This document shows positions 33,060 through 51,184 of a DNA stretch of 64,000 nucleotides, piece after piece. Source of the DNA: Stappia albiluteola. GTDB taxonomy: Bacteria > Pseudomonadota > Alphaproteobacteria > Rhizobiales > Stappiaceae. The notes beneath the pieces are model-generated. The model was not told the DNA's origin, searched no databases, and saw nothing but the letters and a program-made list of their open reading frames with translations. The stretch's first letter is position 1. Each line of letters opens with the position of its first letter. The stretch spans positions 85,662-149,661 of the forward strand of contig NZ_JACFXV010000065.1 in NCBI RefSeq assembly GCF_014050225.1. The letters are read 5' to 3'. A program made the position numbers and the translations under genes.

Positions 33060-33480
33060 GCAACTCCCGTTCCGGTTCAAGACGCAGGGCCGCATAGCCG
33101 GAATCGAGACCTCCCCCGTTTTGGAGACGGCGGCTCGCTTGCGGCGATGCGAACGGGAACACGCGCCGCCACGACGGACGACAGGCTTTCCCGGGAATAA
33201 TGCCTTGGATTGGAACAGGGAGGATCCCCGCACCGCACGGCCGGCAATGATGTAACAAGTGCCTCTTCAGTGACCCCGGAGGTTGGAAACCCCGGCAGAG
33301 ACCAAAAAAGCCCTCTTACGTCGTTGCTTTAAGCCGTCCTGTTTTGCCGCCACCCCGAAACAGTCCGAAGGGGTTGCTGGCGGCTGCCACAGAATTCTGG
33401 ACGACCACGGGCACGTGCGAATTTGGGCAACGCCGTCTTCGCGCAAAACGCCTTCATGATCAAGAAAAAATCCGCCCCTT
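33060..33480 (-). ncRNA. speF-motif-like leader RNA of the ornithine decarboxylase gene
   Basis: The 460-bp region upstream of the decarboxylase has no good gene but is rich in structure on the minus strand. Pairing of 33343-33387 gives a long hairpin with GCCGCC/GGCGGC and ACCCC/GGGGT arms. The block at 33275-33295 (GGTTTCCAACC within CCGG arms) gives another. A speF motif is known upstream of such genes in alphaproteobacteria, and this location and layout fit it. A 42-codon frame on the same strand, beginning MKAFCAKTALPKFARARG, lies inside the leader. The boundaries are approximate. Confidence 0.55.
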
Positions 33481-43070: not shown

Positions 43071-44468
43071 TCAGTCTGCTTCCTCCCACGCCTGAAGGCG
43101 GCGGTAGATCGTGGAAGGGCTCACCTGCAGCGCCGCCGCAGCTTTGGGAATACTTCCGCCGAACTTGGCAATCGCCTGCTCGATGGTTTCCCTGATCACA
43201 GTTTCCAGCGGGCGCACCGCAGGCGAAGGATCCACGAAAACATCGCGCGCGGTCGAATGCCGCAGCGTTTCGCTCGTCCCTGGAACCTTTACCGGAGCAG
43301 CACGAATCTCGGCCGGCAACATATCCAGTTCAAGCGTCTCGCCGTCATGCAGGACGACCGCCGTGCGTATCGAATTCTGCAACTGACGGATATTGCCTGG
43401 CCAGCCGAAGGAAAGAAGAGCCTGTTCGGCTTCGGACGAGATTGCGCGAAACTTCTTCCCGTCCTCACGCGAATAGTCCGCAAGCAGGTGCCTGGCAATC
43501 AGCAGGACGTCGTCATCGCGCTCGCGTAGTGGCGGCAACTCCACTGGCACCACGTGAAGCCGGTAATAGAGGTCTTGCCGGAAACGACCTTCGGCTATCG
43601 CTTCGAGAGGGTTGCAGTTCGTCGCACAGACGATCCGCACATCCGCCAGCCGGGCCATATCCTCGCCGACCCGGCGTACGGCCTTGTCCTGGAGGAAGCG
43701 CAGCAACTTGGACTGCAGCGCCAGATCCATTTCGCAGATTTCGTCGAGAAAAAGGGTTCCACCATTTGCCGTGAGGGCTGCCCCCTTGCGCTCCGACGTG
43801 GCGCCGGTGAACGCGCCCCTGGCATGCCCGAAAATCTCGCTTTCCAGCAGATCGCGCGGGATTGCCGCGCAATTGATCGAGACGAACGGGCCGTCCACCC
43901 GGCGGCTGAGATCGTGAACGGCGCGGGCACAGAGTTCTTTGCCCGTACCGCTTTCACCGGTGACAAAGATCGTGGCGTTTGTCGGCGCTGCATTCTGCAG
44001 GACGCGGTAGACGGTTTGCATCGCAAAGGAACGCCCGACCATTCCCTGGAAACTGTCGCGATCGAATTCATCGTCGATCGTCTCCACCCGGCGGGCAAGA
44101 AGGCGATGCTTGAGAGCGTTGCGGACTGTGACCCTGAGCCGGTCGGCGGTGAAGGGCTTCATGATGAAGTCGAAGGCGCCTTCCCGCATGGCCTCGACCG
44201 CGAGGGCCACCGAAGCCTGGCCGGTGATGACCACGACCTCCGTGGGCATATCTTCAGCCCGAATCTGGCGCAATAGATCGATCCCGTTCGAATCGGGCAG
44301 ATTCACATCGAGCACGATCACATCGGGCAGGGTGCGGGAAATGATGGCGAGCGCCTTTTCTCCCGTCTCGGCGATCTCGACCGGCACGCCTTCCGCCGCC
44401 AGATAGGCCCGATAGGTCTCCGCGAGCGCAACAGTGTCCTCGACGAGGAGGATCTTGGGTTCGACCAT
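43071..44468 (-). CDS. Sigma-54-dependent response regulator (NtrC type)
   Basis: This protein of about 465 residues has three domains. A receiver domain carries DVIVLDVNLPDSNG as the phosphorylation site. An AAA+ domain has Walker A TGESGTGKELCARAVH and the sigma-54-contacting GARGAFTGATSER block. A Fis-type helix-turn-helix has PKAAAALQVSPSTIYRRLQ at the C-terminus. No cognate kinase gene is adjacent. It is divergent from the heme peroxidase gene, which has a candidate -24/-12 promoter, so that gene is a likely target. The start at 44468 or 44474 is favoured over 44492. Confidence 0.92.
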   Translation of the reverse strand: MVEPKILLVEDTVALAETYRAYLAAEGVPVEIAETGEKALAIISRTLPDVIVLDVNLPDSNGIDLLRQIRAEDMPTEVVVITGQASVALAVEAMREGAFDFIMKPFTADRLRVTVRNALKHRLLARRVETIDDEFDRDSFQGMVGRSFAMQTVYRVLQNAAPTNATIFVTGESGTGKELCARAVHDLSRRVDGPFVSINCAAIPRDLLESEIFGHARGAFTGATSERKGAALTANGGTLFLDEICEMDLALQSKLLRFLQDKAVRRVGEDMARLADVRIVCATNCNPLEAIAEGRFRQDLYYRLHVVPVELPPLRERDDDVLLIARHLLADYSREDGKKFRAISSEAEQALLSFGWPGNIRQLQNSIRTAVVLHDGETLELDMLPAEIRAAPVKVPGTSETLRHSTARDVFVDPSPAVRPLETVIRETIEQAIAKFGGSIPKAAAALQVSPSTIYRRLQAWEEAD

Positions 44469-44599
44469 CTTCATTCTACGAAAAAATCCCACACCGGATC
44501 ACCGGTCATGCAAACGATTGAACACGCTTTTTCGCTCAATTCTGCGCTCATTTGCCCCTGCTCGAGCCATGCAGGCACATGCGGGCCGCCCCCCTCAAT

Positions 44600-44614
44600 T
44601 GGCAGACTGGGTGC
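44600..44614 (+). promoter_or_regulatory. Candidate sigma-54 (-24/-12) promoter for the heme peroxidase gene
   Basis: TGGCAGACTGGGTGC matches the consensus TGGCAC-N5-TTGC at all but two positions, with correct spacing. It is 172 bases upstream of the peroxidase start and is directed toward it, next to a sigma-54 activator gene. The rest of the 311-bp gap (44475-44786) contains A/T-rich and short inverted segments that could bind the activator. Confidence 0.5.
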
Positions 44615-44786
44615 GATTTCTCAAGCTGGTCAGAATCACCAAAGGTCACATTCGCGCGGCCAGCCAGGGAGAAAGTATCTCCGTCAATATAATTTTTTGC
44701 CCGTGATTGGCGCTCCAGACGCAGACATAACGCTCCCTTCACGGTAGCGAGCCTAAACAAAAACACGATCAAAAGGGAAACGAACC

Positions 44787-46463
44787 GTGCACAACAAGGC
44801 AACGGACACGACAATTTTGCCAAGTGGCGGCTCAGCCGGGGAATTCGCGAATGCGGGTTTCGACACTGGGCACACCGACCGCTTCGATCATGCGAATCTG
44901 GCGCGGGTATATGTCGGCGTTGAGGATTTGAATGCGCCCGGCGTTTCGGATCAAGCCCTAACCGAGAGGCTGTTTGATGCTCTTTCCGCCCGTATGGCAA
45001 AGACGCGGTTTCCCTTCCAGGACAATGTCGGGCACGTGAACCCGAATATTCCCGCCGGATATACCTATCTCGCCCAGTTCGTTGCCCATGATCTTTCCGT
45101 CAGTTCGAGCGTCGACGAAGGCGTCGACACCGCAATTCAGACGGTAAATCTCAGAACCTACCCCCTCCATCTTGACTGCCTTTATGGCTATGGACCGTCC
45201 TTCGAGCCTGCCTGCTACGAACTGCGGACGGCAAAGCCGATTGCCCAGCGCATCGGCTGGCCCAAAACGCGATTCCGTCTGGATGCGATCTCGAATGAAG
45301 GTTTCGTTCGCCCCGACGATTCTTCCGCCGGACCAAAACGGGATATCGGTCGCCTGATCGAGATGCGTGGCCCGGCAAGCGTCGGGGTCGCGCTCATCGC
45401 AGACGTCCGCAATGACGACAACGCTGTCATTTCTCAACTGACGGCGCTGTTCCAGTTGGCGCATAACGCTGCCATGGACCTGCTGGAAGGCGGGAATGAG
45501 CCGGCAACGCCCGCCACAAGCGCGCTGAACTTCACGATCGCCCGCATGGCCCTGACCCAGGCCTATCGCAAGATCATCCGTCACGACCTGCTCCCGCGCC
45601 TGCTGTCTCCGGCCATACGGGAGTATTACGAGACGTCGGACAATGCAGGGTCGCTCACGTGCAATCCGGCCGATCGCTTCGTCAGCGCGGAATTCGCGCA
45701 GGCCGCCTACCGCATCGGTCATGCCATGATCCGCGAGGCTTACCTGTTCTGCGGGAATCCTCCGGTCGAGCATGTGTTGTCGGACGTGTTGCGACGGAAT
45801 TCCGAGCGAAACCCGCCGAAGACCCCGCACAATCGCGACTGGATCATCGAATGGTCGAATTTCTTTGAGCTTGGGGAAACGCCTCCCCGCCCATCGGGAC
45901 GGCTGGAGCCGCGATATGAAACGCCGCTTTTCGACGACACGCTGTTTCCTCCTGTTGCCGACGGGAAACCGGCCGGCCTTGCCTATCGCGATCTGGTGCG
46001 CAGCTCGAGCGGAGAATTGCGCAAGATCGACGCGATGTGCCAGGAAATCGCGGCTAAAGACCCCGACCTTGCGGCTCGGAGCCCATGGCTCACCGATCGC
46101 GGGCTGCGGCGCCATGCCGTGCGGAAATGGCTGGAGGCCAGCAGGGCGAACGATCTTGGCGACCTTGCCGACGAGGTCGTCAACAACCCTCCGCCGGTTC
46201 TCTATTTCCTGATCGAAGCGGCTGCCGCGGAAGACGGCTTCCGGGCCGGACCTCTCGCCTCGGTGATCATGGCCGAGATCTTCTACAAGGCCCTGCGCAT
46301 GGAACGTGGCAGGCGCCTGGATGGTCTCACCCCGTCTGAAGCCGCGGGCCGCGTCTTCGGCGCCGCGATCCCGCAATCGATGCCAGATCTTATCCGTTGG
46401 GTGGACGCCAATATGTCTTCGCAAGACAAGACCTATTGCGCGACGGATTTGCCACTCATCTAG
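44787..46463 (+). CDS. Animal-type (peroxinectin-like) heme peroxidase
   Basis: This 558-residue protein belongs to the peroxidase-cyclooxygenase superfamily. The distal histidine lies in AQFVAHDLSVSS at residue 101, the active-site arginine near RNDDN at 208-212, and the proximal histidine in YRIGHAMIREAY at residue 312. These are the hallmarks of a heme enzyme using hydrogen peroxide. There is no signal peptide, so it appears cytoplasmic unless exported by another route. It starts with GTG after AAAAGGG. A 131-residue orphan gene follows 36 bases later. The natural substrate is unknown. Confidence 0.88.
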   Translation: MHNKATDTTILPSGGSAGEFANAGFDTGHTDRFDHANLARVYVGVEDLNAPGVSDQALTERLFDALSARMAKTRFPFQDNVGHVNPNIPAGYTYLAQFVAHDLSVSSSVDEGVDTAIQTVNLRTYPLHLDCLYGYGPSFEPACYELRTAKPIAQRIGWPKTRFRLDAISNEGFVRPDDSSAGPKRDIGRLIEMRGPASVGVALIADVRNDDNAVISQLTALFQLAHNAAMDLLEGGNEPATPATSALNFTIARMALTQAYRKIIRHDLLPRLLSPAIREYYETSDNAGSLTCNPADRFVSAEFAQAAYRIGHAMIREAYLFCGNPPVEHVLSDVLRRNSERNPPKTPHNRDWIIEWSNFFELGETPPRPSGRLEPRYETPLFDDTLFPPVADGKPAGLAYRDLVRSSSGELRKIDAMCQEIAAKDPDLAARSPWLTDRGLRRHAVRKWLEASRANDLGDLADEVVNNPPPVLYFLIEAAAAEDGFRAGPLASVIMAEIFYKALRMERGRRLDGLTPSEAAGRVFGAAIPQSMPDLIRWVDANMSSQDKTYCATDLPLI

Positions 46464-46499
46464 CCGCCAACCACCGGCCAAGCCAAAAGGGAGAATGTC

Positions 46500-46895
46500 A
46501 TGACTGAGCAGAGACTTGGGCGCATTACCATTTTCGACCACAAGGCTTTTGGCAGGCTTATCGCCGACTATGCCACGGGTGTCAGGCCCTGGCCGGCGTC
46601 ACTCGATGAATTCAAGCAGGAAGTCGAAGGTCGCAACATTGCCAAGGTGCCCGAGCACATGAAGGCCATACAGGTCGTCCAGCCCTCGGACGAGATCTTC
46701 TTCCTGCGCCTGCCGCCGCGCAAGATGATCAGCCAGTCGCTCGAGCGTTTCGCGGAAAACGACGCATCCGGAAATACGGAACCCTATCCGGCTCCGCCCT
46801 TCTATTCGGACATGGTTTGCCGGGAAGCCCGTCTCACCCATACCGACTTTTTCCTCAGCCGCGTCGCTGACTACACGATTTCCGTCTGCACCTGA
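46500..46895 (+). CDS. Orphan 131-residue protein downstream of the heme peroxidase
   Basis: I do not recognise this protein. It opens with RLGRITIFDHKAFGRLIADYAT, has a helical middle (PSLDEFKQEVEGRN-like) and ends HTDFFLSRVADYTISVCT, with cysteines at about residue 107 and 130. There is no signal peptide or membrane segment. The gene is 36 bases after the peroxidase and has AAGGGAG, so it should be on the same transcript. Because a stand-alone YcaO gene is near, it could be a substrate or a partner, but this is speculation. Confidence 0.7.
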   Translation: MTEQRLGRITIFDHKAFGRLIADYATGVRPWPASLDEFKQEVEGRNIAKVPEHMKAIQVVQPSDEIFFLRLPPRKMISQSLERFAENDASGNTEPYPAPPFYSDMVCREARLTHTDFFLSRVADYTISVCT

Positions 46896-47102
46896 CATTT
46901 CGGTCTGAATTGGCATACCGAAAGCGACAACCCGGTCGAAATGGATACGTGAAACACAAAAACAAGCTGAACAGATACGGAGCGCCCTGGAGATTTGGTC
47001 AAACCGCTTCTTCGATGCGCCCCGAATCCCTGACGACCAAGGGCGCAGGCGCTTCAGCCTGCGCCCGAAAGGGATGCCGTTGCGTGAATTCCGCAAGGGA
47101 AA

Positions 47103-49202
47103 TCAATCCGGTACATCCATGCCGGCGCTGCGCAGCCCGTCCCACAGTTCGTCGCGTTGGCGCAGGTCGGCTATCGGAAAACATTCGGAAAGCCACTCGA
47201 ATATGTCCCGGCTCGTCGGACTCGCGTCGGCGACCCATCTGCCCGCGATGCGCTGCTCCATACGCTTGCACGCCGCCGACGCCTCCTCGGCCCTTCCAAG
47301 CTTGGCCAATGCGGCGACATACCAGGCCTCGACACCGACATAACCGCTGTCCATCTGGACGAACGTGTCCGCCGCTGCCTGATAATCTCCGCTCAGGAAC
47401 ATGATTCCGACGTAATAGCTCCAATGGAGCGGGGAAATGAGCATTCCGCGCTCATTGAGCTCGACGGCGACCGCCTTCGCTTCTTCGCGGTATCCGTAGT
47501 AGCCCAGTCCGTGTGCGGCCGAAAGGGCGGTCCAGGGATCGTTGCGGTTCAACTCCAGGGCGCGCCTGTGATGCACTTCTGCGGTCTCGAAATCCTCGCG
47601 CAGCGCGGCCGTCCAGCCCGCACAAAGGAAAGCCCGGGAATCGAACGGATCCAGGGTGATTGCCATTCCCGCCAGTTCGTCCGCCCGCCGCAGATCCGAC
47701 ATCAAACGCCGCCGGCCGGGGAAGATGATGTGCCTGGAATTCAGAACCTGCGCGAGGCTGCTGTAGGCGGGACCGAATGCCGGGTCCAATTCGATAATCT
47801 GCTCGAAAACCGCTTCTGCGCGCTGGGTTTCTTCATAAAGCCACGAATAGTGGAGTTGCTGCCCCTGCAGGAGCAGGTCATAGACCTGCAGCGATGTTGC
47901 AGGCACCTTCATGAGCTGCGTGAGCCGGGCTGCCGATATGTTGACCCGCATCGCCATGGCGATATGGCTTATGAGGTGCGGCTGCATGGAAAACAGGTCT
48001 TCCAGCCGCACTTCGTAATCCCGGCCCCAGATATAGGCGCGTGTTCGGGAGTTCTTGATGACAACCGAAAAAGTGGCCGCACGGCTTGTGCTGGCCGTGC
48101 TGATGGACACCCTGTAGACAGGGATCGGGCTGCGGGCGAGTACCTCGGTCTCCGCATCGACGACGGACCATTCCCGAAACCTCACCAACCGGGATATCAG
48201 GTCGTGGCGAAAGACTTCCGCCAGGCGGGCATCGCGGCTTGTCTCGTCGAAGTGAAGCCCTTGCTCGACGATGATTGCGGGGCGGAAATCGCCGACGATA
48301 TTGCCGGACGCGGACGACGGGGAAATCCCTCTGCCCGCCTTTTCGGGTTCCTTGAAGCCGCCTTCAGGCTTTTCGCTCTCCTCCGGCTCCGGGGAATAGG
48401 CGCCAAGCTTGATGCTAACGATCAGGTCCTGCGTTTCACGGGCGGGCTGTGTATCGAATTCCTCTTCGAGGACGCGCCACAAGTCGTCATAGGCGCGCAC
48501 CGCTCCGGCAAAGTCGCCGGCGCGCGCCCGTGCGTGAATGAACGCCCGGCATGCCGGCTCATGCGTCGGATCGAGGTTCAACAGAGCGACGGCCGCCTGC
48601 TCCACCACCCCCCAGTTCGCCTTGGCCGGAGACAGGCGATCCTCGAGGATTGTTCTCAAGCCGTCGTAGATCTGCTGCCGCCGGTTGCGCAACCAGACGG
48701 TAAAGCTCTCGTCGAGACCTTCCATCCGATCAAAAAGACGATCCTGCAGGCGCTTTTCGGCGAGCAGCCGGCGTGGAAGTTCTTCCCCTCGCTTCAATTC
48801 CGCGAATAGGGCGTCGATATCTGTCTCGATGCGGCTCTTGTCGATAAAAATGCTGAGGCGGTCGGACCCGAGACCGTCGAACCCGGCGGCTTCCAGCTCT
48901 CTTCTGATAATGAGAAGCGTCTGCCGTAGGGACGAGCGCGCCTGGGCTTCCGGGCTTTCGCTCCAAAGCAGGCCGGCCGCCAATTCGCGCGTCATGCGGC
49001 CATCGAGCACGAGGCACAGGTAGCCAAGCAAAGCATCGGCCTTGCGGGAGCGGAACTTGAGGGCCCGCCCCGCAATACGAAACGTAGGGTGCCCTAACAA
49101 CTCGGCTGAAAGCCGCGTTGAGGCTACCGCTTCGCTGGAGCCTGCGCCGGACGTTCCCGGCTCTTCGTGGTTTCGCAAGGCAGTGCCTGTCCGCTTCGTC
49201 AA
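47103..49202 (-). CDS. BTAD/TPR transcriptional regulator (SARP-like)
   Basis: This protein of about 699 residues has an N-terminal winged-helix region (LKFRSRKADALLGYLCLVLDG, residues 45-70). A bacterial transcriptional activator domain follows with LWLRNRRQQIYDGLR-type helices and EACRAFIHARARAGDFAGAVRAYDDL. Then comes a linker with acidic residues, a CadC-like alpha/beta region and several TPR-like repeats (residues 440-680). It starts with TTG, overlapping the YcaO stop by 4 bases, so it is translated with YcaO. SARP-type regulators often control secondary metabolites; its target is not known. Confidence 0.85.
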   Translation of the reverse strand: MTKRTGTALRNHEEPGTSGAGSSEAVASTRLSAELLGHPTFRIAGRALKFRSRKADALLGYLCLVLDGRMTRELAAGLLWSESPEAQARSSLRQTLLIIRRELEAAGFDGLGSDRLSIFIDKSRIETDIDALFAELKRGEELPRRLLAEKRLQDRLFDRMEGLDESFTVWLRNRRQQIYDGLRTILEDRLSPAKANWGVVEQAAVALLNLDPTHEPACRAFIHARARAGDFAGAVRAYDDLWRVLEEEFDTQPARETQDLIVSIKLGAYSPEPEESEKPEGGFKEPEKAGRGISPSSASGNIVGDFRPAIIVEQGLHFDETSRDARLAEVFRHDLISRLVRFREWSVVDAETEVLARSPIPVYRVSISTASTSRAATFSVVIKNSRTRAYIWGRDYEVRLEDLFSMQPHLISHIAMAMRVNISAARLTQLMKVPATSLQVYDLLLQGQQLHYSWLYEETQRAEAVFEQIIELDPAFGPAYSSLAQVLNSRHIIFPGRRRLMSDLRRADELAGMAITLDPFDSRAFLCAGWTAALREDFETAEVHHRRALELNRNDPWTALSAAHGLGYYGYREEAKAVAVELNERGMLISPLHWSYYVGIMFLSGDYQAAADTFVQMDSGYVGVEAWYVAALAKLGRAEEASAACKRMEQRIAGRWVADASPTSRDIFEWLSECFPIADLRQRDELWDGLRSAGMDVPD

Positions 49203-50545
49203 TAGAGTGCGATCGCGTCGCCCGGAATTCGGGCAAGGCCGGATGCCTGCCGTTGGGTCTCAAGACGCGGCAGGACGAGCTCTGAGGGATCGGGCTGCAA
49301 GCCGTCGACGATCGCGCGAATAACCGGAACCGCTATGTCCTCTCGCGTAAGATCCACAAGATGCACCGGGTGGCCATGCGCCTCAAGCCTTTGCGCGAGG
49401 TAGGCAAGCACCTCTTTGGCATCTCTGCTATCCTCGTTCCTCCTGCATTCCGCCGTTCCCATTTTTGCCGCCTGCAAGCCAGGCCAGTCGCTCCCGATTT
49501 TCGAAAACCGTTCCAGGTGTTTGCGGTCGGTCTCGTTCAGGCCTTCATTCCCGCGCTCGCGCTGCTTTGCCGCGACCAGATGATCCGCAAGTTCTATTTG
49601 CAGGAGCTCGTCGAGCGCATTGCGGCAGGCGTCCGCGAGGTTTGTCGCGGCAGCAAACCCATATGCAAAACCTTGCCCGTCCCTTCCGACGGAAAGCGCG
49701 GCCGCGACGGGAATATCGAGATCGGTCGTCAAGTCCAGAAACCAGGTCCGTCTTTCGACCAGCCCATCTCTATATTGACCGAGGCGGCCTGCAAGACCGG
49801 TCCCGTCGAAGATTTCCATCGGAACTGCTGCCGGGCTTCGACCTCCGCGCCACCACAAGGCCACGGCGTCGCGCTCGACCCATTCCAGAATCGCGTGGCA
49901 GGCAGCTTCTTGCGCGTTACGTCCGGCGGCCACCCCAACTCCCATCGCATAGGAGAGCCCGTTTGCATCCCTGCCCCTCCCCCTCCTGAAGGTGAGGATC
50001 CCTGGCAAACGGCACCAGCGACCGTCTGTAACCCGTTCTGCCCATACCCAATCGGAAGCGTCAAGTTCCCGGCCGCCTGTGAGGCCGTTCCATGCATATG
50101 CCTCTGTCGCGGCGTGCCATGAGCCGTCGGGTCCTTCACGACGTATGCCTGGCGAACTGGCCCTGGTTTCTTCCCCGGATTCGAACTGGCAGACGAATTC
50201 CGCCGCCTCCGCCACGCATGCGCGAAACGCCGTGGCCCTGTCCTGTCCCACACCGGAAACAGAGGCCGTCGCGGAGACCACGGCCCCATACTCCGAGGTC
50301 GACGCAACCGCCCCGAAACAGCAAAGCCCCGGTGCTGTCGGCGAGCGTAGTTCGAACAGATGATCAAGCTTTGCCGCGAACCGCAACAGACGTGCCAGAT
50401 CCTCCCTGTCAGCTGCGTCTGACAGGTCTGACAACCCCAACCAGTCAAGCAGCGCAAATCCCTGCGCCCCTGTCGAAGGAGTACCCGCCGCATTCGAATA
50501 AAGCTCTGCGGCGGCGACAAGTGCTTGTCGCATTTCCGGTTTCAA
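49199..50545 (-). CDS. Stand-alone YcaO-domain protein
   Basis: This 448-residue protein has YcaO hallmarks: the SVSGVGQDRATAFRACVAEA ATP-binding block near residue 95, EWVERDAVALWW near residue 220, and IPVAAALSVGRDG followed by ADACRNALDELLQIELA. YcaO enzymes use ATP to activate backbone amides, giving azolines, thioamides or amidines on peptides. No E1-like, TfuA or dehydrogenase gene is near, and no PxPxP C-terminus is present. It starts with TTG behind GAGGTG and overlaps the BTAD/TPR gene. The nearest candidate substrates are small orphan proteins. The exact reaction is unknown. Confidence 0.88.
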   Translation of the reverse strand: MKPEMRQALVAAAELYSNAAGTPSTGAQGFALLDWLGLSDLSDAADREDLARLLRFAAKLDHLFELRSPTAPGLCCFGAVASTSEYGAVVSATASVSGVGQDRATAFRACVAEAAEFVCQFESGEETRASSPGIRREGPDGSWHAATEAYAWNGLTGGRELDASDWVWAERVTDGRWCRLPGILTFRRGRGRDANGLSYAMGVGVAAGRNAQEAACHAILEWVERDAVALWWRGGRSPAAVPMEIFDGTGLAGRLGQYRDGLVERRTWFLDLTTDLDIPVAAALSVGRDGQGFAYGFAAATNLADACRNALDELLQIELADHLVAAKQRERGNEGLNETDRKHLERFSKIGSDWPGLQAAKMGTAECRRNEDSRDAKEVLAYLAQRLEAHGHPVHLVDLTREDIAVPVIRAIVDGLQPDPSELVLPRLETQRQASGLARIPGDAIALY

Positions 50546-51154
50546 TGCCGCACCTCATTTCGACTTTCGAAACACACTTGGGCCGCGATAGACCCGCTCG
50601 TCAAGCACAACCATAAGGATAGTTACAACAACCGAATTTGCTCGCCCTGGCTGCGCAGACGGGCCGCAAACCCCAGATTGCAGCGGCAGGATATCTCAAT
50701 CATGCGCTCCACCGATGAAAATCACGAACAAATAACGCAACCGATGATCAACTGAAATTGTAGGAAATACGGTCAGTAGCGCTCTTTGATTGTCTGTCAC
50801 GGCATCGCACAACCTGTAGATGGGGATATCGAATTTGCTGTGCGATGGGGCTGTTTCGGCCCGCCTGTGCCGAAGAGGCGGCCTGAGGAGCGCCTGCAGG
50901 CGAAGGAATCACCGGGCAGCAGGCTTCGGCGTTTGCTGACGATCCTTGCGCGACCGGAGCAGCTGGTTTGCGGTTGCCGGCTGGACTGCTCGGACGATGA
51001 AAGATTTTAGGAAGTTGCCGGAGTGCCTGGGAGGCCGGGGAAACCCTGCCGTATTCGTGGCTGATTGCCTTCGGATGCAGGGAGGACCCAGTCTCCGCAC
51101 ACGCGATCCGGATTTGCCAGCATTGAGGGCCGCCGGCTCGCACGTGACCCAACT

Positions 51155-51184
51155 GGGCCGGGTGAGTGAGCCCGGCCCATTTTT
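51155..51184 (+). terminator. Rho-independent terminator downstream of an unassigned plus-strand region
   Basis: GGGCCGGG (51155-51162) pairs perfectly with CCCGGCCC (51171-51178) around an 8-base loop and is followed by ATTTTT. No plus-strand gene upstream is assigned, so it may end an unrecognised transcript. Confidence 0.7.

Follow-up and report, generated by a model that had tools for sequence, protein, structure and literature searches.

Within a 64,000-nucleotide stretch of the Stappia albiluteola genome (NCBI RefSeq assembly GCF_014050225.1, contig NZ_JACFXV010000065.1, positions 85,662 to 149,661 of the forward strand), which we call the window, two pairs of genes face each other. One consists of an animal-type heme peroxidase and a small protein of 131 residues, here named P131, the other of a stand-alone YcaO enzyme and a BTAD/TPR regulator. 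We predict that these four genes form a cassette which modifies the invariant C-terminal tail of P131, and we put the probability of this reading at roughly 0.55. The features concerned are the following, in coordinates of the window.

44787-46463, plus strand: animal-type heme peroxidase, 558 aa, GTG start; PF03098 match (E=1.4e-8) over residues 201-323 only
46500-46895, plus strand: P131, 131 aa, predicted modification substrate with a folded scaffold and an invariant C-terminal tail
46848-46892, plus strand: P131 C-terminal tail, FFLSRVADYTISVCT, with Tyr125 at 46872-46874 and Cys130 at 46887-46889
47103-49202, minus strand: BTAD/TPR regulator, 699 aa; BTAD domain PF03704 (E=7.9e-9)
49199-50545, minus strand: stand-alone YcaO, 448 aa, TTG start; PF02624 match (E=9.6e-41)

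The P131 open reading frame (ORF) begins 36 nt past the peroxidase on the same strand, and the YcaO and BTAD/TPR genes share 4 nt on the opposite strand, convergent to the first pair. A first-pass annotation of this DNA had placed these four genes and an adjoining sigma-54 response regulator correctly, and its description of an overlapping YcaO and BTAD/TPR pair convergent to the peroxidase and P131 is borne out. Within the five-gene interval neither tRNAs nor Rfam families gave a match above cut-off.

P131 had also been described as an orphan, which it is not: a single-sequence search retrieved 15 homologous database proteins and a profile search 46. Their tail reads roughly R-[VI]-[AG]-D-Y-[TS]-x-x-x-C followed by one to three residues, and 45 of the 46 end in this way, with [DNE]-Y-[TS]-x3-C before the last one to three residues; the sole exception is a truncated fragment (P0129), which is excluded from both of our alignments. 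G18, Y125 and C130 are invariant in the 39-row alignment (A3), and Y125 and C130 in the 57-row alignment (A4, in which one pair, P0003 and L022, is redundant). All 57 rows match [DNE]Y[TS]xxxCx{1,3}-end, with one residue after the Cys in 54 rows, two in 2 and three in 1, and D124, Y125 and T126 are nearly as conserved as C130. The last 12 columns carry a mean of 3.01 bits per column, compared with 1.89 for the remainder and 2.66 for the best other 12-column stretch. Synonymous divergence is high and non-synonymous divergence low, both against two relatives (dS 1.56-1.74, dN 0.13, dN/dS ~0.08) and against a third (dS 1.27, dN 0.24, dN/dS ~0.19), showing that P131 is a real gene whose protein is under constraint. 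The AlphaFold2 model of P131 is helical (pLDDT 86.4, pTM 0.78), and the tail motif extends out of its last helix (114-127) into a terminus of low confidence.

P131 loci were examined in 18 distinct genomes: the window, G001 (Hongsoonwoonella zoysiae), G002 (Stappia sediminis), G028, G034, G011, G006, G016, G021, G060, Stappia indica SN13-18 (locus L034), S. taiwanensis (L035), Stappia sp. MMSF_3263 (L036), a Hyphomicrobiales metagenome-assembled genome (L040), G291 (L045), G153 (L046), G448 (L051) and G156 (L068). Twelve of them belong to Stappiaceae-like relatives and are not independent; the distant loci are L030 (in G060), L040, L045, L046, L051 and L068, of which L046 and L051 come from one genus. 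The BTAD/TPR gene adjoins P131 in 18/18 genomes, making it the most constant neighbour, and YcaO lies beyond it in 16 of the 17 testable genomes, the exception being L040 (L051 is not counted because its contig ends first, and the YcaO of L046 is cut by a contig end). Other alphaproteobacterial families show the same four-gene layout (L030, L045, L046 and L068), their proteins being about 30% identical.

The peroxidase is less constant. It is present in full length at 11 of the 18 loci (window, G001, G002, G028, G060, L035, L040, L045, L046, L051 and L068) and absent from the P131 locus, the only place examined, in six (G034, G011, G006, G016, G021 and L036). In Stappia indica SN13-18 only the last 93 peroxidase residues match (L034, 9681-9959), with no full-length ORF, while P131, BTAD and YcaO are kept. 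The suggestion of the first-pass annotation that YcaO and peroxidase act on P131 as one system thus holds as regards linkage, but not if the peroxidase is taken to be obligatory.

Across 61 genomes, that of the window included, YcaO (E<=1e-20) was found in 11, P131 in 10 and both in 10, always linked (hypergeometric p=1.2e-10, ignoring kinship). The single-system idea was to fall if relatives carried the two pairs separately and unlinked; it survives, since all 10 P131 genomes in this set carry a linked YcaO. In a sample of 385 genomes of the class, YcaO (E<=1e-20) occurs in 5 and the peroxidase (E<=1e-10) in 11, with a co-occurrence p of 6.7e-9, or 2.4e-7 without the window's genome, kinship again being ignored. 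All 5 of these YcaO genomes have a peroxidase on the same contig at a distance of at most ~3 kb. Six of the 12 class-level peroxidase matches lie near YcaO (G000, G153-C108, G291, G156, G334 and G411 with a weaker YcaO). Searches at the level of the order detected P131 in 2/18 genomes around G153 and 1/23 around G291, indicating that the cassette is rare.

We also looked for a fifth partner. Clustering of the ORFs of 13 loci showed that only BTAD, YcaO, the peroxidase and P131, together with opposite-strand shadows, recur across distant P131 loci; most other shared genes reflect local synteny of close relatives, and the ABC-ATPase genes of L040, L045, L069 and L074 form one cluster. The compared loci share no gene for an E1-like or TfuA protein, an FMN dehydrogenase, an exporter or a peptidase, and neither E1-like nor TfuA genes were seen among the scanned neighbours in the window.

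The YcaO protein gives a match to TIGR03604 of E=8.8e-33, which is below cut-off, and its sequence matches in the PDB are TruD, LynD and MusD and, less well, MJ1094. In ten aligned copies E113, E116, E221, E224, R225 and D226 are invariant. The four glutamates are presumably ATP-site residues, and as both Glu-x-x-Glu motifs are conserved the enzyme is likely to be active. It is the only match of the YcaO query at E<=0.001 in its own genome. We propose that YcaO would activate, at the expense of ATP, the backbone carbonyl that precedes Cys130, and that a thiazoline would form at this residue; neither an E1-like nor a TfuA partner would be involved. It could instead carry out thioamidation or macroamidine formation on the backbone of the tail, for example at Asp-Tyr-Thr, and the near equal conservation of D124, Y125, T126 and C130 would suit such chemistry. 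PMC8120280 and PMC4603692 describe stand-alone or TfuA-linked YcaO proteins doing so elsewhere (bottromycin, the McrA glycine), and our YcaO is weakly similar to MJ1094 and, below cut-off, to TIGR03266, the model for McrA-glycine thioamidation. However, its best matches (TruD, LynD, MusD and TIGR03604) form the azoline-type group, Cys130 is invariant and no TfuA is seen at the locus, so that we regard this alternative as possible but unlikely, and keep thiazoline formation as the preferred chemistry.

Ten aligned copies of the peroxidase share invariant Q97, H101, D102, R208, R309 and H312, which we take to fit the distal QxxxHD, Arg and proximal RxGH pattern of the peroxidase-cyclooxygenase superfamily. 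The PF03098 match is above cut-off, and the distal QxxxHD/Arg and proximal His expected of this superfamily are in place; no sequence relative was found in the PDB at E<=10. By eye, the L040 copy has a segment, RRGFLKG, resembling a twin-arginine translocation (Tat) signal, and no N-terminal signal is apparent in the window copy or in the other eight copies inspected in this way. At L045 (6513-8165) a vanadium-chloroperoxidase-like gene (VCPO_N + PAP2) stands directly beside the heme peroxidase, which hints at halide or further peroxide chemistry at that cassette. In the regulator, the BTAD match lies above cut-off. The L045 homologue additionally shows a Trans_reg_C (winged-helix) match of E=2.8e-4, at 21.3 bits against a cut-off of 26.2; the window copy has no match to this model.

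P131 was also examined as a possible precursor with a leader and a Cys/Ser/Thr core, for which it offers the invariant C-terminal Cys and a near-invariant Thr. Aligned by hhalign to the profile of the nitrile-hydratase-like leader peptides (NHLP), the P131 profile reached a probability of 40.5% (score 28.3, 40 columns). The highest score among the usable column shuffles was 18.4, and among 45 natural control segments 14.0; a further shuffle, which scored 131.9, was set aside as a two-column artefact, leaving 149 of 150. We treat this similarity as a lead and not as membership, as no curated model fires: none of the 39 A3 members matches TIGR03793 (NHLP) at E<=1, and the homologue P0141 matches TIGR03795 with E=0.04 over 29 residues, far below cut-off. 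Nor does the P131 consensus contain a GG-type cleavage site, and its core is near-invariant rather than variable. On sequence grounds, then, the case for P131 as a substrate is made by its invariant Cys-bearing C-terminus and the weak NHLP-leader signal. As a separate observation, frames of ~210-300 aa at G000:C60:46913-47308 and G000:C43:290751-291143 each give two tandem matches to TIGR03793, both below cut-off; many alphaproteobacteria have double matches of this kind, and 52/142 genomes had some match to this model.

Two further genomes of one genus, G334 and G411 (loci L069 and L074), carry a YcaO and a peroxidase of the same family as adjacent, co-directional genes. These loci also hold a cyclase/TPR protein (TIGR04510, E=8.3e-10 and 4.9e-10, far below cut-off) and small proteins (L069, 8574-8984; L074, 2722-3252) ending IRSCASC or IRCCAAC, which align to the NHLP profile with a hhalign probability of 78.5% over 75 columns and to P131 with one of 16.5%. 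They may be seen as a sibling system with a different substrate, so that the small Cys-ending proteins dedicated to a YcaO-peroxidase pair come in two forms that look unrelated. At six other peroxidase places, no convincing Cys-ending partner was seen among the short ORFs within 1.5 kb.

We therefore favour a cassette in which P131 is predicted to be a folded substrate akin to the ribosomally synthesised and post-translationally modified peptides (RiPPs). What the sequences show is that the genes remain linked in distant genomes, that the tail is invariant, that putative catalytic residues of both enzymes are conserved, that P131 is under purifying selection and that the distant loci have no fifth gene in common. 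The folded, weakly NHLP-like front of P131 would serve as leader and docking scaffold for the thiazoline-forming YcaO described above. The peroxidase, where present, might use hydrogen peroxide for an accessory oxidation of the thiazoline product. We treat it as accessory because several lineages lack it at the locus and because Tyr125 is invariant where it is missing, so that the conservation of this residue is not ascribable to the peroxidase. Control of the cassette would fall to the BTAD/TPR protein, whose TPR part may recognise the tail once it is modified. As no exporter or peptidase is conserved, the product would probably stay inside the cell, perhaps still attached to P131, which is the weakest step of the scheme; the near-invariant core and the lack of a conserved exporter favour an internal role, as cofactor, metal site or signal, over that of an antibiotic.

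The strict association of P131 with the BTAD/TPR protein could also be read in terms of a redox sensor, in which P131 would be the sensing protein and no biosynthetic substrate, the Tyr and Cys of the tail would be oxidised by the peroxidase or by peroxide itself, the TPR part would bind the free C-terminus, YcaO would prime or repair the tail and the locus as a whole would sense peroxide. TPR domains can bind C-terminal peptides, the motif lies at the very C-terminus in 57/57 rows, the regulator is a stricter partner of P131 (18/18) than YcaO is (16/17), and the lack of a conserved exporter among the compared loci suits such a sensor. However, the peroxidase is missing from six P131 loci and reduced to a remnant at a seventh, simple redox sensing needs no YcaO, and one locus (L031) keeps the YcaO-BTAD pair without P131. 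Taken together, this makes a pure sensor quite unlikely in our view.

Several observations speak against the modification cassette and the intracellular fate of its product, and have to be set beside the evidence above. P131 has no Pfam or NCBIfam match above cut-off (RiPP recognition element domains were not specifically searched), and its models have no fold match in the PDB. The class searches detected P131 in only 3/385 genomes, and a fourth, G156, surfaced only through the tail motif beside YcaO and the peroxidase; its P131 E-value is not independent, because the matching profile includes G156's own sequence. At L040 the peroxidase, P131 and BTAD genes stand without an adjacent YcaO and with the tail unchanged, the only YcaO elsewhere in this genome being a distant one (E=8e-6). 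Conversely, L031 (G042) has YcaO and BTAD without P131 or peroxidase, the sole case of YcaO without P131 among the 61 genomes. The tail, Tyr included, is unchanged at the loci without peroxidase, and RiPP antibiotics seldom have an invariant core. Finally, a Pfam scan of ten flanking ORFs of the distant loci revealed a subtilase-family peptidase adjoining the peroxidase in L046 (5709-7301) and an ABC-exporter-type gene ~4 kb away in L045 (10224-12125), which bear on whether the product stays in the cell. The scan also showed a flavin monooxygenase-like gene in L051 and a P450 in L030; none of these extra gene types recurs in the ten-ORF set. Given such locus-specific extras, a private protease or exporter may exist in single lineages.

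The incomplete loci L040 and L031 also raise the question of whether a peroxidase-P131 pair and a BTAD-YcaO pair merely lie side by side as independent units. The pairs are convergent and do not form a single operon, either occurs without part of the other, and 6 of the 12 class-level peroxidase places (G153-C44, G421, G205, G352, G408 and G177) have no YcaO in the stretch fetched, some of these stretches stopping at a contig end and that of G177 ~0.7 kb past the match. On the other hand, the convergent arrangement recurs at ~30% identity in different families while the flanks change, and P131 stays with BTAD-YcaO after loss of the peroxidase. We therefore disfavour chance adjacency as improbable and retain the four-gene cassette.

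In L031 (7000-13100), the YcaO-BTAD pair follows what appear, from labels read off the ORFs, to be bacterial microcompartment shell genes. The genome of L040 holds a different YcaO at L047 (5568-9982), with a TfuA-like neighbour (again labelled from the ORF) and its own BTAD/TPR regulator, which suggests that regulators of this type accompany YcaO genes more generally.

Two further features lie next to the cassette.

43071-44492, minus strand: sigma-54 response regulator, a neighbour in some Stappiaceae and not part of the core, present at 7/18 P131 loci
50717-50738, no strand assigned: candidate regulatory element of the YcaO-BTAD operon, a conserved 22-nt block located 172 nt upstream of where YcaO starts

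The sigma-54 regulator had been counted as a member of the system, together with a candidate -24/-12 promoter between it and the peroxidase. Its adjoining P131 in so few genomes does not bear this out. The promoter candidate agrees with the consensus at no more than 8/12 positions in the window, and a scan of the unaligned regions of five relatives revealed no evident equivalent, the top scores on the peroxidase strand being 6, 6, 7, 7 and 8 at differing offsets. In the ~1 kb, otherwise diverged gap between YcaO and a LysR gene, two blocks, at 50717-50738 (22 nt) and 51139-51163 (25 nt), are ~91-92% identical to two genomes of the same genus; the first, identical at 20/22 nt, is as far upstream of YcaO in both as it is in the window. 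Elsewhere in the window (33124-33428, minus strand), Rfam matches to the speF leader and the ar45 small RNA stand side by side.

If our reading is true, an animal-type heme peroxidase joins the enzymes that may tailor ribosomal peptides, a YcaO works on a folded substrate without an E1-like or TfuA partner, and there is a named, testable substrate whose near-invariant core places it closer to peptide-derived cofactors than to antibiotics. On a practical level, the P131 family, with its 46 database members and no Pfam or NCBIfam model, provides a handle for finding the cassette elsewhere. A more far-reaching proposal would make this a new class, in which a partnerless YcaO and a peroxidase turn the R-V-[AG]-D-Y-T-x3-C-x tail of a folded ~130-residue protein into a redox or metal-binding group that remains permanently attached and is read by the BTAD/TPR protein, as an intracellular signal or protein-bound cofactor and not an exported antibiotic. 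We put this forward tentatively and think it rather unlikely in this full form.

The literature searched contained no paper that combines YcaO, a heme peroxidase and a RiPP. Among known systems, pyrroloquinoline quinone (PQQ) and mycofactocin resemble P131 in having small ribosomal substrates with a near-invariant C-terminal motif that includes a Tyr and a presumably undiversified product. Both use radical SAM enzymes and a peptidase, which are not seen at the window locus, and P131, unlike their substrates, is predicted to be a folded protein of ~130 aa. With thiazole/oxazole-modified microcins (TOMMs) and linear azol(in)e peptides the cassette shares a YcaO related to TruD, LynD and MusD and a dedicated small protein with a Cys-bearing C-terminus. 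Unlike TOMM loci, the P131 loci have no E1-like C protein or FMN dehydrogenase in common, and neither an E1-like C protein nor a fused leader-binding domain was found among the scanned window neighbours; stand-alone YcaO exceptions without an E1-like partner are known (PMC4603692). Thioamidated YcaO-TfuA RiPPs likewise combine YcaO with a small precursor, as described in PMC8120280. They differ from the window locus, which has a peroxidase and no TfuA among the scanned neighbours, and PMC8120280 does not use the word peroxidase in its main text.

Of the systems described so far, the NHLP-Burk family comes nearest. Its precursors (TIGR03795, with a 114-position model) are small proteins with a nitrile hydratase-related front, encoded, as P131 is, near a YcaO-type enzyme. 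In Burkholderia, where they occur in pairs, one of the two ends in Cys or Cys-Cys (Haft et al. 2010, PMC2887384); the word peroxidase is absent from the main text of this paper. Unlike NHLP-Burk, the P131 loci have no fused cyclodehydratase, encode one precursor with a near-invariant C-terminus instead of a tandem pair, and add a heme peroxidase and a BTAD/TPR protein.

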